A stretch of DNA of 36,336 nucleotides, from the NCBI GenBank assembly GCA_002790095.1, contig PFUL01000180.1, positions 1 to 36,336 of the forward strand, read 5' to 3'. Positions 113 to 6,826 of the stretch are shown here, in pieces (the first letter of the stretch is position 1; each line of letters starts with the position of its first letter). The notes under the pieces were generated by a model. That model saw nothing but the letters and a program-made list of their open reading frames with translations. It had not been told where the DNA came from and searched no databases. This stretch comes from Elusimicrobia bacterium CG_4_9_14_3_um_filter_62_55 (lineage in GTDB: Bacteria > Elusimicrobiota > Elusimicrobia > UBA1565). The position numbers were made by a program, and so were the translations under genes.

Positions 113-496
113 TTAAATGTCCGGTGGCGCTTCACAAAACGAGGGGGGCAGGCTCCTCCATTGGATGTGAAAAAACTTTGCGATACGCTGAGCAATCACT
201 TCTGGCTGCCCAACAGAACCAATCACAATAATACCACCGTGGTTCTTTTTTGCGGTAGCCCAACGTTGATGGATTATGCGGAAATCCCGGCGATTGTGGG
301 TAACCATAACCCAATTCTTCTGGGCTGAAAATTCGAGTTGAAAATCGTCTGGTTTCCCGCTATTGCCCGCATCAAGTGTGTGTACAACAGAAAACCCCGA
401 CCTTTCTAGTAACTTTTTAACGGGGTATTCGATGTTTTCATTTAGGTAAATGACGGGAAGCTCGGTTCGCTCCTGGGAAGCTTCCACAGGTATCAC
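113..496 (-). CDS. DUF5615 PIN-like protein, putative toxin
   Basis: 127 aa, GTG start overlapping the stop of the DUF433 gene upstream (GTGA). The core has the DUF5615 layout: a short strand ending in LNEN near residue 20, a Leu-rich helix, a strand with VVHTLDAG, an acidic PDD pair, then VMVTHNRRDF. Family members usually read LDEN, so the first acidic metal ligand appears replaced by Asn here, followed by Glu. DUF5615 proteins are PIN-like and are commonly found as the presumed RNase toxin beside DUF433 antitoxins. The pairing here matches that. Nuclease activity is inferred, and the LDEN change makes catalytic competence uncertain. It is the last gene of a three-gene operon. Confidence 0.8.
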   Translation of the reverse strand: MIPVEASQERTELPVIYLNENIEYPVKKLLERSGFSVVHTLDAGNSGKPDDFQLEFSAQKNWVMVTHNRRDFRIIHQRWATAKKNHGGIIVIGSVGQPEVIAQRIAKFFHIQWRSLPPSFCEAPPDI

Positions 497-882
497 TGGA
501 TGGCGAATTCGGACCGGGTCTCTTCCTCGATGAGTTCCTCAATTTCAGCGGGATGCTGCCGGTAATACTCCTCAGCAGCATCAATCTGGCCCGCAGACAG
601 TTGAGGATAGACGGCACCAAGGCGAGATTTCTCCCCCAGTCTCGTAAGTGCCTCGATGAGATGATGCACCGAAATGCGTGTCCCAATAATTATGGGAGCT
701 CCTCCGCAAATCTGCGGAGTGCAGCCAATCAGGTATGCGGAGCTTTGTCCCGGCCCACTCTGCCCCTGAGGGGTCGCAGGTATTTCGGATGCGAGCATGA
801 GGTATAAGGCAGTGTCCCCCGAAGTCTCGGTCGAGGAGTGTTGCAACAAAAAGAATTCATCCTTATCTAGGGTTAGACTCAT
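493..882 (-). CDS. DUF433 protein, putative antitoxin
   Basis: 129 aa. Residues about 52-115 carry the DUF433 signature: ICGGAPIIIGTRISV, a helix, then YPQLSAGQIDAAEEYY, which is a winged-helix-like antitoxin domain. The N-terminal 50 residues are an extension without recognisable similarity. Its ATG overlaps the stop of the 244-aa gene upstream and its stop overlaps the GTG of the DUF5615 gene, so translation of all three is probably coupled. A GGAGG sequence lies about 9 nt before the ATG. In known pairs the DUF433 member neutralises the PIN-like toxin; that role is inferred here from gene order. Confidence 0.85.
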   Translation of the reverse strand: MSLTLDKDEFFLLQHSSTETSGDTALYLMLASEIPATPQGQSGPGQSSAYLIGCTPQICGGAPIIIGTRISVHHLIEALTRLGEKSRLGAVYPQLSAGQIDAAEEYYRQHPAEIEELIEEETRSEFAIQ

Positions 883-1954: not shown

Positions 1955-1988
1955 AAAAAAGGCTCAGCTAATTTAGCTGAGCCTTTTT
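1955..1988. terminator. Bidirectional intrinsic terminator
   Basis: An 11-bp perfect stem (GGCTCAGCTAA, 1961-1971, with its complement at 1973-1983) is flanked by six A and five T residues, so it can act in both directions. On the minus strand it follows the tRNA-Asn gene by about 11 nt and would end its transcript. Confidence 0.85.
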
Positions 1989-1998
1989 CTGAGAAAAT

Positions 1999-2304
1999 CT
2001 CCGGCGGTAGGATTCGAACCTACGACCCATCGGTTACAAGGCCCCCCGGCTTTCACCGAGGCTTGGACTATCTCATCACCCACGAAGGGTGTCGGGCGCT
2101 TCCCGCGGCGAACCTCGCCGAAGTACGAGCTCTCGCTCTAGTCTCTGCACCTTCCCCGAACCGTCTCGAGGCTTGGCTCAGGATTCCCGTTGCAGCCTGG
2201 AAGCCGCGTTAGGGTTCCCTGAATTCACCCGATTTTTCAACCACCGTTACCGGTGGAAGCTGCCGATCTGACAGCCGATTGCTCTACCGCTGAGCTACGC
2301 CGGA
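1999..2304 (-). tRNA. tRNA-Asn(GUU), split by a group I intron
   Basis: Exon 1 is 2304-2271 (34 nt) and exon 2 is 2036-1999 (38 nt). Joined they give a 72-nt cloverleaf: acceptor TCCGGCG/CGCCGGA, D arm GCTC...GAGC, anticodon stem ATCGG/CCGAT with loop CTGTTAA (anticodon GTT), T arm GTAGG-TTCGAAT-CCTAC, discriminator G. CCA is not encoded. Other junctions give either a 6-nt loop or an intron that does not end in G. The chosen junction lies between U35 and U36 and satisfies the group I rules (exon ends in U, intron ends in G). The gene would not be found by a search that assumes an unbroken tRNA. Confidence 0.9.
2037..2270 (-). ncRNA. Group I self-splicing intron (IC3-like) in tRNA-Asn
   Basis: 234 nt. 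P1 forms between exon GGCUGU and intron GCAGCU, with the required U.G pair at the splice site, and the last nucleotide is G. P2 is CCACCG/CGGUGG. Core strings typical of bacterial tRNA introns are present in order: GAAUUCAGGGAA (P3/P4 region), AAUCCUGAGCCAAGCC (P4/P6), GGUGCAGAGACUAG (P6/P7) and GAUGAGAUAGUCC (P7/P9). No homing-endonuclease frame is present, so the intron is a minimal ribozyme. The subclass IC3 is inferred from size and location in a tRNA. Confidence 0.92.
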
Positions 2305-2313
2305 TACACCTTT

Positions 2314-2319
2314 ATTATA
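2314..2319 (-). promoter_or_regulatory. -10 element of tRNA-Asn
   Basis: TATAAT on the minus strand, 9 nt before the mature tRNA 5' end. No good -35 is seen. It lies inside the start region of the divergent transporter gene. Confidence 0.6.
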
Positions 2320-2331
2320 CCATGATTGAGC

Positions 2332-3210
2332 ATGTGGCGAGAACGGCTCCGACGGACGGACGGCCTCCTGCTGGTTCTCTTCTCCTCGACCTGGTTCTCC
2401 GCGACCACTTTGTTGGTCAAATTGCTCGGAACCGAAATCCCGACCGCCTGGATCGCGTTCATGCGCTCGGTCGTCGCGCTGCCGATGATCGCGGTGTTCA
2501 TGCACCGCCGCGGGCTGTCCTACCGCAGCGAACACGGCTTTCGCCTATTTCTAAGAGGGGTCTGGGGCATCTCGGCGATGGTCTGCCTGTTCTGGGCGCT
2601 GCCGCGCATCCCCGTCGCCAACGTGATGCTGATGAGCCACGCGAGCCCGCTGTACGCGGCGATCTGGGGCGTGCTGTTCTTGGACGAGAAGCTCGATAAG
2701 GCCGGAGTCTTCTGCCTGCTCGTCGCGTTCTCCGGCGTGTATCTCGCGCTGCGGCCGGAATTAAGCCTGGAATCCCTGCCTTACTACGCGGCGCTGCTCT
2801 CCGGAATCTTCTCCTCCTTGGCCTTCGCGACGATTCGCTCGCTCGGGAAGACCGAACCGCCGCTTCGGATCATCTTCTATTTCGGACTGATCGGAACCTG
2901 CGTCTTCCTGCCCTTCGCGCTCAAAAGCGGCTACCTCCCCACGCCGCGAGAATGGGCGCTGATGTTCGCGGTCGGCGCGACCGCCACGGTCGGCCAACTC
3001 TTCTTGACCACCGGCATCACGAAAGCGCCCGTGGCGCGCGCGTCGGTCGGCGCGACCTTCATCATCGTCTTAAACATCGCCGGCGGCCGGCTGTGGTGGG
3101 GGGAAGTGCCCGACGCGTGGACCTGGGTCGGCTGTCTCTTGATCGTCGGCGGCATCGTCGGTCTTACCACGGCGGTGCGCCGGCGCCTCTTGATCACCGT
3201 CGCCGAATAA
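2332..3210 (+). CDS. DMT-family (EamA) permease
   Basis: 292 aa from ATG 2332; a TTG two codons earlier (2326) is an alternative. Ten hydrophobic segments arranged as two EamA repeats are seen, the first beginning LLLVLFSSTWFSATTLL and the second after residue about 150 (YYAALLSGIFSSLAFATI). The TRSLG/RALG-type and APLYAAIWGVLFLDEKL-like motifs in each half are typical of drug/metabolite exporters of the inner membrane. The substrate cannot be told from sequence. No Shine-Dalgarno is present and the start codon overlaps the divergent tRNA-Asn promoter, so the transcript may be leaderless. It ends 5 nt before the hairpin of a strong terminator. Confidence 0.88.
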   Translation: MWRERLRRTDGLLLVLFSSTWFSATTLLVKLLGTEIPTAWIAFMRSVVALPMIAVFMHRRGLSYRSEHGFRLFLRGVWGISAMVCLFWALPRIPVANVMLMSHASPLYAAIWGVLFLDEKLDKAGVFCLLVAFSGVYLALRPELSLESLPYYAALLSGIFSSLAFATIRSLGKTEPPLRIIFYFGLIGTCVFLPFALKSGYLPTPREWALMFAVGATATVGQLFLTTGITKAPVARASVGATFIIVLNIAGGRLWWGEVPDAWTWVGCLLIVGGIVGLTTAVRRRLLITVAE

Positions 3211-3250: not shown

Positions 3251-6200
3251 TTACTTGCCGGCTTTCGCGGCCTCGGAGCGGATCTGCGCGAAGTACTTGT
3301 TCGCGTCGCGGATCACTTCGGAGTAGGGCTTGTCCATCAGGATCTCGACGCCCTGGCTCACATGGCTGATCGCCCAGATCTTGAATTTGCCCTCATCGAC
3401 CGCCTGCTTAATGTCCGGCCTAAGCATCAGGTCCGCGACGTTCATTTCGGGAATCAGAACGCCCTGCTCGCCGTTGAGCTCCTTGCCCTGGCGGCGCAGC
3501 ATGTCGACGACCACGTCGTAGAAGCCCGTGATCTTCTCGTTGACGCCGCCGATCACCTGGACGTTGCCCTTTTGGTCCATCGAGCCGGTCATCGCGATGC
3601 CTTGCTTGATCTTCGCGCCGGAGTAGGCGGAGAGCACGCCGTAGGTCATGGTCTGCGTCGCCGAGTCCCCGTCGATGCCGCCGTACTGCTGGGCGAACTC
3701 GATGGAGACCTCGGCCGGGATCGCCTGCCGGCTGCCGAAGGTGCGCTTAAGGAAGCCCTGGATCACGCCGACCGATTTATCGAAGCTGCTTCCGGTGGAG
3801 TGCGCGTCCTGGTCGGTGGAGACGATCAGCCGTCCGCCGGTGCGAACGCCCGCCTCGTAGGTGATGCGGGACGGGACGCCGAAGTCGTGGCCGACGACGG
3901 CCAGGCCGTTGTTTTGTCCCTGGACCTCGCCCTCGATGTCCACATGGAAGGTGCCTTCGCCGAACAGGTCGAGCATGTGCTTGCGGCTCGAACCGCGGCG
4001 CGCGGAGCGGGCGTCGACGGCCTGGCGGACGTCCTCGGCCTCCACGATGTCCCGGCTCGCCTTGCGGGCGTAGTGCGACGCCTCGAGCAGCAGGCTGTTG
4101 ACCGCGCCGAACTGGGCGGTCAGTTTCCGGTTGGAACCCGCCATTTTGGCGCTTTCCTCGAGAACGCCGGCGATGGCGCTCTGACTCATGTCGAGCAGCT
4201 TTCCGCCGCTGTATTGGATTTGCGTGTGCAGGAAGCTCAAGAACGCCTGAATCGTCTCCTTCGCGATCTTAAACGAGCGCTCGAACTCCGCCGCGGCCCG
4301 GAACAGGCCGGAGAAGTCCTCGTCGTTGTGTTCGACCATCATGTGCATCATCGGCGAGGCGATGAACACGATCTTCACCATGTTCTCGCCCTTCACGTCC
4401 ACCTTGTACTGCTCGCCCTGTCCGGTGGCGATGCCCTGCACGCCGCCTTCGGTGATCGTCGCCTGGCCGCTGCGAACCATGCGCATGAGGAACGGGTAGG
4501 TGCCCTCGCGCAAAGTCTCAAGCAGATCCAAAACGAGGTAGCCGCCCCGCGCCTTCAAAAACGAGCCGCTCTTGAGAACCGGCCCGCCGGGGGACTTGCG
4601 CTTCACCGGCATCGCCAACCCGGGCATGATGACCATCTGACTTCCGCCCTCGGCCTCGCCGAACAGATTGGAGAAGTTCGGGGATTTCTCGAACACGACG
4701 GGCGCGCCCTGCGTGTTCGCGTTGTCGGTGAGCAGCGAGACCTTCACGCTGTCTTGGGGATCGCCGGCCATCGGATTTTTGGGGGAGTCGTTGGAGACGA
4801 AGGCCGGATAGTTCTTCACCAAATGCTCCACGAAGGTTTCCAGCCACGCCACCGCCTGTTTGCGGCTTTCGCTCAGCGGCGGATCGTTCTCGTGTATCTT
4901 CGCGTGTTCGGCCGAAATCTTCTCGGCGATCGCTTCCTGTTCGGCCAACAGCGGCTTCGCGACGGCCAACGCGCGCTGGACGAAGGACTCGAAGGTCTCT
5001 CCGGCGCCGATCACGCCCTTCGCCTTCAGCTCTTCGAACACCTTCGGCGTGACGATCGTCTTTTCCCCGTAGACCATCACGATCTGGCCCTGCTGGGTGA
5101 ACGCGATGCGCAGCGGCCCGATTTCGGCCGCGGCGACCTTCGCCTCGAACTCGGCCCAATAGGCCTGCTGGCGCGCGCGCCAGTCGTGATGGGCCTGGTC
5201 CTCATGGGAAGGGGCGCCGGAGGCCAACTGGTACACGGGTCCGGCAAGCTGGGAGATGACCTGTCCGGCCAGCTGCACCTCGACCTGTTGGAGCTTGGCC
5301 GTCACCTTCGCCTGCTCCTCCATGTTCACCTTCATGATCTTGCCGTACTCCTCGATCAGAGGCTTGGACGCCGCCTTGAGTTCCGCCATCAGGTCTTCCT
5401 TCGAATAGGGTTTGCCTTCGATCTTTTCGTCGATCTCTTCGGCTTTGAGCGGTTCGCCCTGGTAGGTGACCTCGGCCATGATCCCGAACTGGTTCTCGCT
5501 CATCTGGCGCACGGAGATGCGCAGACCCCATTCCCCCTTGATCTTGACCTTCGCCGCCTTGCGCTCGATCGCCTTCTGGCGGTCGGCGACGGCGGCCTGA
5601 AGGCTGCCCAGGAGCTTCTTCTTCATCTGGGCGTACTGGCCCGTGGAAAAAACCTTTTCGAGCGATCCGCCGACGTTTTCGAGCACGGCCTCGACGCCGG
5701 CCTTGAACTCACGGCCTTCGCCCGGGGCCATCTCCAACACCACCGGATTCTCCGGATTGTCGAGATGGGTCACCGCCACGAGATCGTTGGGCGTCGCGCG
5801 CTTCGGCGCGATTTCCGAAAGCAGCTGCCGAACCGCAGTTTCGCGGCCGGTCCCGTCCGGACCGGAGACGATCAGGTTGTAGCCCTTTTCCCAAAGTTCC
5901 ATGCCGAAGCGCATCGCGTCGAGCGCCGCGTCCTGACCGACCACTCCTTTCTTGCGAAGCTTCGCCTCGGTGGCCTTCTTCGGCAGATAGTTCGGGTTCG
6001 GGCTCCAGCGGACGTCGGATCCTTTCAGCCGGAACCGCTCGGTATCCATCTTCTCGACTTTCGGGCGGGCGGCCTCGGCCTTCGCGGCCGCCCAACGGCG
6101 CAAACCCGCGATCGGGCGCGGCAGGCGCGCCGTCGCGAGCCAATGATAGAAGCCGGAAGTCTTGGCGGCCTCCTGAGCCGGCAGCGCCGAACGATCGGTT

Positions 6201-6826
6201 TTCGCGGCGCCGCCGTCGAACACCTCCGACAGACGGGCTCCGCCGCCGTCGGGCAGCGCCAAGCGTTGGGCGAACGCGGTCAAATTGCTTTTCGCGGCGC
6301 CGGCCGGAAGCGCGGCCGCGACCGCGCCCAGATCCTGCGCGGAACGAGCTCCGGTAAATTCGTTAAGAAGCTTTTGGCCGCCGACGCGCTGGATCTCGTT
6401 GACGATCCCGATCACCGGGTGGCGGTCCACCGCGGAGAGACCGGCCGGGAGCGCCTCGGCTTGAATCGGAGCGGCGGAGGCGGTGGGGAGAACGGCGGTC
6501 GGGCGTTGGGCGGAGGGGGTCGCCTTGGCCGCGGAGCCGATCACGGCTTCCTGGGCAACGATCAGAGTCGAAGCGGAGAGACCCGGGGAGAAGGTCATCT
6601 GCATCGAGCCGACCGTGGCCGCCTGGGATTGCCCAAGCGCCGTCGCGGCGGGAGCGATGACGGTGCCGAGCGCCGTTTGGCCGATATTGACCCGCGCGAT
6701 CGGCGCGGCGAAGGCGATCCCGCCCGGTCCCGTCAACAGCAGGGCCGCGGCGAGCGCCGTGGAAAGGAGTTTATTCGCGGCTGCGGCAAGGCTCGAGGAC
6801 TTCCCCATGTCTCTGTTCCCCATCAT
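3251..6826 (-). CDS. LonB-like AAA_32/Lon-domain protein with signal peptide
   Basis: 1191 aa. Order: signal peptide (about residues 7-40, hydrophobic core LLSTALAAALLLTG, likely cleavage AFA-AP), a low-complexity Ala/Pro region to about 260, an AAA_32-type ATPase region (280-950), and a C-terminal Lon protease domain (950-1175). The P-loop is GPDGTGRET (322-330), where Arg replaces the usual Lys; a Walker B-like GGYLVLD ends at 767. The Lon dyad is intact: Ser1055 in GDSATQ and Lys1098 in GGVNEKI. Ordinary LonB-type proteases are cytoplasmic and about 800 aa. The start at 6808 (preceded by GGGGAA) would remove six residues and give a cleaner leader. Export of an ATP-dependent protease would be odd, so either ATP is not used or the leader has another role. 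Confidence 0.88.
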   Translation of the reverse strand: MMGNRDMGKSSSLAAAANKLLSTALAAALLLTGPGGIAFAAPIARVNIGQTALGTVIAPAATALGQSQAATVGSMQMTFSPGLSASTLIVAQEAVIGSAAKATPSAQRPTAVLPTASAAPIQAEALPAGLSAVDRHPVIGIVNEIQRVGGQKLLNEFTGARSAQDLGAVAAALPAGAAKSNLTAFAQRLALPDGGGARLSEVFDGGAAKTDRSALPAQEAAKTSGFYHWLATARLPRPIAGLRRWAAAKAEAARPKVEKMDTERFRLKGSDVRWSPNPNYLPKKATEAKLRKKGVVGQDAALDAMRFGMELWEKGYNLIVSGPDGTGRETAVRQLLSEIAPKRATPNDLVAVTHLDNPENPVVLEMAPGEGREFKAGVEAVLENVGGSLEKVFSTGQYAQMKKKLLGSLQAAVADRQKAIERKAAKVKIKGEWGLRISVRQMSENQFGIMAEVTYQGEPLKAEEIDEKIEGKPYSKEDLMAELKAASKPLIEEYGKIMKVNMEEQAKVTAKLQQVEVQLAGQVISQLAGPVYQLASGAPSHEDQAHHDWRARQQAYWAEFEAKVAAAEIGPLRIAFTQQGQIVMVYGEKTIVTPKVFEELKAKGVIGAGETFESFVQRALAVAKPLLAEQEAIAEKISAEHAKIHENDPPLSESRKQAVAWLETFVEHLVKNYPAFVSNDSPKNPMAGDPQDSVKVSLLTDNANTQGAPVVFEKSPNFSNLFGEAEGGSQMVIMPGLAMPVKRKSPGGPVLKSGSFLKARGGYLVLDLLETLREGTYPFLMRMVRSGQATITEGGVQGIATGQGEQYKVDVKGENMVKIVFIASPMMHMMVEHNDEDFSGLFRAAAEFERSFKIAKETIQAFLSFLHTQIQYSGGKLLDMSQSAIAGVLEESAKMAGSNRKLTAQFGAVNSLLLEASHYARKASRDIVEAEDVRQAVDARSARRGSSRKHMLDLFGEGTFHVDIEGEVQGQNNGLAVVGHDFGVPSRITYEAGVRTGGRLIVSTDQDAHSTGSSFDKSVGVIQGFLKRTFGSRQAIPAEVSIEFAQQYGGIDGDSATQTMTYGVLSAYSGAKIKQGIAMTGSMDQKGNVQVIGGVNEKITGFYDVVVDMLRRQGKELNGEQGVLIPEMNVADLMLRPDIKQAVDEGKFKIWAISHVSQGVEILMDKPYSEVIRDANKYFAQIRSEAAKAGK

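Follow-up and report, generated by a model that had tools for sequence, protein, structure and literature searches.

Background

Group I introns of bacterial tRNA genes have been described for few hosts, namely tRNA-Leu, tRNA-Ile, tRNA-Arg and tRNA-fMet. The introns of tRNA-Ile(CAU), tRNA-Arg(CCU) and tRNA-fMet lie on the other side of the anticodon than the tRNA-Asn site considered here. Classical bacterial tRNA introns of subgroup IC3 have no P7.1 and P7.2 hairpins between P7 and P3, such hairpins being a feature of group IA. Bonocora and Shub reported in 2001 an endonuclease that is encoded within an intron and acts specifically on tRNA-fMet genes (as cited in PMC3984707), and the tRNAscan-SE 2.0 paper mentions fMet and Ile2. 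Some tRNAs of CPR bacteria are mentioned in passing as having group I introns (PMC8172020), with no tRNA-Asn, site or family named in the passages of that paper on CPR tRNA introns. The 2014 review of bacterial group I introns (PMC3984707) placed all phage group I introns known by then in protein genes, and 'Asn' is absent from its text. A sequence-only reading of the DNA analysed here had called a tRNA-Asn host split within the anticodon little described; this holds for the open-access literature, where we found no description of an intron at site 35/36 of tRNA-Asn, but not for the sequence collections, where the site is common across bacteria.

The interrupted tRNA-Asn gene

The window, that is the whole stretch of 36,336 nucleotides analysed, is contig C53 of an Elusimicrobia draft genome (G000; 4.31 Mb, 202 contigs, 95% complete). 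The Rfam group I intron model RF00028 matches it on the minus strand at 2280-2044 over the full model (1-253), scoring 73.5 bits, above the gathering score of 50, with an E value of 5.1e-17. In its default mode, with no introns allowed, ARAGORN misses the tRNA-Asn of the window, which reflects a limit of the tool and no real absence; its intron mode recovers tRNA-Asn(gtt) at 2304-1999 (minus strand), a gene of 306 nt (72 nt when spliced) with a 234-nt intron placed between gctgt and taacc. The split point of the GUU anticodon lies between U35 and U36. The 5' exon (34 nt, 2271-2304) ends in U35, the intron (2037-2270) ends in G2037 and contains no ORF of 60 codons, and the 3' exon (1999-2036) extends from U36 to the discriminator G73, with no encoded CCA. 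The expected exon junction after splicing is predicted to read CUGUUAACC. Thus the sequence-only reading was exact in naming a group I intron in tRNA-Asn(GUU) at 1999-2304 on this strand, and the covariance-model check that it proposed gave a match above the gathering score.

The boundaries agree with the corresponding locus of G189, a genome of the same family and another genus, in which a LonB-like protease (window 3251-6826, minus strand; Pfam), an EamA-type transporter (window 2326-3210, plus strand; Pfam EamA, 1.9e-33) and tRNA-Asn occur in the same order and the tRNA gene is intact. Window positions 2271-2304 and 1999-2036 align to L257 2596-2629 and 2630-2667, respectively, and because the two exons abut in this intronless orthologue, the intron is 2037-2270. 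This exact empty site, along with ARAGORN, bears out the earlier placement of the insertion between U35 and U36. Another family relative, G184, has an intronless tRNA-Asn beside the same EamA transporter, with the LonB-like protease region recognizable as DNA, whereas the syntenic locus is rearranged in the congener G188. The gene, its boundaries and the empty site are established. The comparison points to either a gain of the intron in the window's lineage or its loss from the relatives with the empty site; lateral gain would be the simplest reading, with loss as the alternative.

An extended -10 promoter-like element, TGGTATAAT, was read from the sequence directly before the tRNA (2314-2322, minus strand), and a terminator-like hairpin with a T run (1955-1988, minus strand; fold of -21.6 kcal/mol) follows directly after it. 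A promoter/terminator consensus scan, which used a two-hexamer model without the extended -10, reported neither TGGTATAAT nor the hairpin. With these elements on its two sides, the interrupted tRNA-Asn looks like a one-gene transcription unit. Elsewhere in the window, positions 1699-1759 match the tRNA array of G188 and its surroundings (L253 4928-4989) at 77% identity across 62 bases, perhaps as the remains of a tRNA gene or by chance, and a DUF5615 (PIN-like) gene adjoins a DUF433 gene (113-496 and 493-882 (-)), by its look a toxin-antitoxin pair.

Structure of the intron

Helices P1-P9 were assigned by hand from the Rfam alignment and tested on a MAFFT alignment of 56 tRNA-Asn introns. Over these introns 92.8% of the base-pair cells are paired, compared to 34-46% in slid controls; 46 of the 62 pairs show changes on both sides, and the covariation score is 0.508 vs 0.156 in shuffles. 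All helices lie on the minus strand. P1 pairs the exon sequence GGCUGU (2271-2276) with the internal guide sequence GCAGCU (2258-2263), with U35 forming a U.G pair with G2263 at the splice site, and this pair is conserved in 56/56 introns. P1 hardly varies (4/6 pairs invariant), its exon side being formed by the anticodon arm. The P2 hairpin with a GUAA tetraloop (2241-2256) has both-side changes in 6/6 pairs, and P3 (5' strand 2226-2232, 3' strand 2092-2098) covaries in 7/7 pairs. The P4-P5-P5a domain (2178-2222) and P8 (2077-2091) are found by the hand model, the covariation test and the minimum free energy (MFE) fold, and P6-P6a (2149-2177) by the first two of these. P7 (GACUA, 2139-2143, with UAGUC, 2066-2070) is nearly invariant (4/5 pairs) and 99.6% paired, while 9/10 pairs covary in P9.0 (AAG/CUU) and the GAAA-capped P9 (2038-2064). 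Overall, covariation is seen in P3, P4, P6a, P8, P9 and also P9.0, and the conserved fold is established. The landmarks noted from the sequence alone (exon-final U, intron-final G, the U.G pair of P1 and the core P3-P7 strings) all reappear in this model.

Between P7 and P3 the window intron carries a 40-nt insert that forms P7.1 (GAGA loop) and P7.2 (2099-2138), according to Rfam, the hand model and the MFE fold. The family is not uniform in this respect, about one-sixth of its members having only a short segment between P7 and P3. Although the intron shares the anticodon-loop insertion of subgroup IC3, it has the P7.1/P7.2 insert that IC3 introns lack; therefore we do not file it as IC3, and by P7.1/P7.2 alone it would be closer to group IA. 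Its description as minimal was apt in that it has no ORF, but not in view of P7.1 and P7.2 and of a family that reaches 180 nt.

When the 306-nt precursor is folded without constraints, the MFE structure contains the acceptor, D and T stems of the tRNA together with P1-P6, P7.1, P7.2, P8 and P9, and the P7 pseudoknot is the sole helix missing from it. The intron is predicted to be catalytic. It is possible, if rather doubtful, that the intron is genuine but needs a host protein for folding and does not splice unaided. All core helices, the GNRA loop in L2 and the GAAA loop in L9 are present, and self-splicing in vitro is known for bacterial tRNA introns, both of which argue against such a need. 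For it speak the search for P10, in which none was apparent, since the bases 5' of the guide sequence allow only a G.U pair with U36, and the precedent of natural group I introns that require help such as Cyt-18 (PMC3984707).

Distribution within Elusimicrobiota

RF00028 matches were found in 62 of 341 Elusimicrobiota genomes. The sequence-only reading had suggested looking for the same insertion site in other genomes of the lineage, and an interrupted tRNA-Asn is indeed present in 33 of the 341, with the junction always at 35/36; among the 56 genomes of its order the window genome is the only one with a tRNA-Asn intron. ARAGORN in intron mode misassigned the isotype (Tyr, Cys, Thr) in several relatives, and junctions were therefore read directly. 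By exact-pattern search, 248 genomes have an intact tRNA-Asn, including 247 of the 308 without an interrupted gene but only 1 of the 33 with one, so that an intact copy is absent in 32/33. The Fisher p value of this exclusion, 2.4e-19, is descriptive because the genomes are related. The pattern is not at fault, since each of the 33 genes would fit it once spliced, and several of the 32 genomes without an intact gene are 97-100% complete. Both the distribution and the near-exclusion of intact copies are established. As cells without tRNA-Asn could not read AAU and AAC codons, interrupted genes that are sole copies are presumably spliced, and asparagine decoding appears to depend on a self-removing RNA in bacteria that have no intact tRNA-Asn. 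The interruption also explains why a default tRNA finder misses tRNA-Asn in these genomes.

Group I introns of this phylum also occur in tRNA-Leu, CAU-anticodon and other tRNA genes and in rRNA genes (L081, L095, L101, L069, L097, L106, L118 and others). The 23S rRNA gene of the window genome has a weak group I match of 621 nt with 24.5 bits (L002 1501-2121, C106:33632-34252).

A second tRNA-Asn gene

The sequence-only reading had made cell viability depend on splicing if the interrupted gene were the only tRNA-Asn. It is not the only one: typing of the tRNA complement of G000 from contig stretches revealed, on contig C191, an array of 25 ARAGORN-called tRNAs that includes an intronless tRNA-Asn(GUU) (L054 9441-9515, 63.4 bits), and a similar array of G188 (L253) has one with 66 bits. 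Dependence on splicing by necessity is thus not directly applicable to G000.

This raises the question of whether the interrupted gene is dead or dying, with the array tRNA-Asn doing the decoding. Besides the two array genes themselves, the congener G188 favours such a state, the array copy being the only tRNA-Asn found there. Several observations speak against it. The interrupted gene keeps its two exons and its ribozyme core in full, between promoter-like and terminator-like flanks. The non-array tRNAs of G000 cover every amino acid but Asn, which would then be the sole one without a standalone tRNA outside the array. In the array tRNA-Asn, position 8 is A where nearly all tRNAs have U, and the D loop is altered; U8 is missing in 12 of the 25 array tRNAs vs 5 of 47 elsewhere in the genome. 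Finally, the interrupted gene is the only tRNA-Asn found in 32 relatives. Taken together, we regard a dead gene as quite improbable. Given standalone tRNAs for all other amino acids and the odd array copy, the interrupted gene probably supplies the tRNA-Asn of G000 under normal conditions, with the array copy as a possible backup, and we infer that it is spliced in the cell.

The array itself (L054 8079-11639), with divergent tRNAs half of which have no U8, neighbours a T4 Rnl1-like RNA ligase (L054 10360-11388) and a PcfJ-like protein (L054 5892-7625), and may serve in tRNA repair or as a decoy. We considered C191 as a phage contig and dropped this idea: a comparable array exists in the congener G188, and the genes of the contig have a chromosomal look (radical SAM proteins from Pfam matches, the rest judged by eye).

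Other phyla, phages and mobility

At least 113 stretches of named genomes have the 3' junction of an interrupted tRNA-Asn, which indicates presence, not frequency, per phylum. Among the matches listed from all collections, 143 of 155 loci have the matching 5' exon too; in the other 12 it was not recognised, often where the locus ends nearby. The hosts among these matches include Patescibacteria, Omnitrophota, Nitrospirota, Cyanobacteriota, Myxococcota, Bacteroidota, Acidobacteriota, Aminicenantes, Rokuibacteriota, Planctomycetota, Bacillota and Stahliibacteriota; an archaeal MAG with an interrupted tRNA-Asn (L136) may be misbinned. Outside Elusimicrobiota, 43 of the 49 genomes with an interrupted gene among the matches listed have no intact tRNA-Asn. 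Among these 43 is the WWE3 RAAC2 record, titled as a complete chromosome. Only the interrupted gene was likewise found in Nitrospira. In cyanobacteria such as Microcoleus and Tychonema an intact tRNA-Asn was present as well in 5 of 6 checked. Plasmid sequences gave no match to an interrupted tRNA-Asn. Phage-like IMG/VR contigs (L244, L246, L248, L249, L251) contain tRNA-Asn interrupted at 35/36 within clusters of other tRNAs. A separate case is that of jumbo phages of Klebsiella, in which a CAU-anticodon tRNA is split by a group I intron (L262 670-979 of phage Muenster, RF00028 104 bits; L263 1194-1496, OU509535.1).

In a FastTree phylogeny of the intron cores the window intron groups with that of G179 (support 88), introns of Myxococcota, Aminicenantes and Acidobacteriota lie near it, and those of Elusimicrobiota do not form one clade; with cores this short, support is weak at depth, and the tree is a basis only for the phyla being mixed. 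Among the matches listed, 40 of the 52 introns of at least 330 nt have an ORF of at least 60 codons, which lies in the P1 loop, before the guide sequence. Nearly all of these ORFs belong to one family with invariant CxxCGY, HH and C..NCH.E motifs (Cys, His and Asn residues), Pfam HNH models match them below cut-off, and the best matches include phage proteins, several named HNH endonuclease, that are 48-60% identical to them. The presence of HNH endonuclease-like ORFs in the P1 loop of these long introns suggests that the tRNA-Asn introns homed in the past.

The persistence of an intron without a mobility gene, in a tRNA-Asn gene that is usually the sole copy, could also mean that the intron is retained because regulated splicing limits asparagine decoding under some condition. 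The intron alignment has no conserved extra aptamer-like domain, and mobility with rare clean loss accounts for the persistence, making such regulation very unlikely. An assembly or binning artefact, or excision by an archaeal-type protein endonuclease, can practically be set aside: the genome is a draft in 202 contigs, but the neighbours are syntenic in two family members (G189, G184), 32 further Elusimicrobiota genomes have the same structure, and the group I core covaries.

Overall reading

The best explanation of the whole, in which we have high confidence, is a spliced group I intron at site 35/36 of tRNA-Asn, a settled member of a wide and once-mobile family. The tRNA-Asn(GUU) precursor would be transcribed alone, with a compact P7.1/P7.2 group I intron parting U35 from U36. 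The intron would fold with P1 on the 5' exon, the P3-P8 core, P9.0 and the terminal G; external guanosine would attack after U35, and U35 would then be joined to U36 to give a standard tRNA-Asn. The family of same-site introns, some of which carry in their P1 loop an ORF for an HNH-type endonuclease, has probably been dispersed by homing and transfer, and the window copy would be an ORF-free, settled member of it.

On balance we also lean, with more reserve, towards a broader view: that site 35/36 is home to a bacteria-wide but unrecognised family of mobile introns with HNH-type endonucleases, carried by phages too, which makes asparagine decoding ribozyme-dependent in whole lineages whose tRNA-Asn is seemingly missing in standard annotation. 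If the interrupted gene is the sole copy, every asparagine codon would rely on RNA catalysis. Such genomes are a ready-made collection in which to study how homing introns become established in essential genes.

Comparison with known systems

The tRNA-Leu(UAA) introns of cyanobacteria, plastids and this phylum resemble the window intron as group I introns of the anticodon loop with a U at the 5' splice site and a split anticodon, so that a split within the anticodon is not new even among Elusimicrobiota. They differ in host tRNA and in site (34/35 vs 35/36), and those of Elusimicrobiota have no P7.1/P7.2, both of which the window intron has. The introns of tRNA-Ile(CAU), tRNA-Arg(CCU) and tRNA-fMet (Azoarcus, Agrobacterium, Synechocystis) likewise combine a bacterial tRNA host, an anticodon-loop site and a compact ribozyme, but are reported from few lineages, whereas the tRNA-Asn site is occupied in many phyla and with an HNH-type ORF in the P1 loop. 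The tmRNA introns (PMC11915505) are also compact, have a P7.1 region and a tRNA-like host, occur in many phyla and mostly lack an endonuclease gene. These lie in the T loop, with endonuclease genes in 4.1%, within P7.1 or after P9, compared to endonuclease-like ORFs in the P1 loop of 40 of the 143 tRNA-Asn introns among the matches listed. What is new here is the host, tRNA-Asn, whose one anticodon serves for both asparagine codons, together with a different site and anticodon split, another ribozyme subtype and a very broad occurrence, with splicing and homing as predicted properties of the family.
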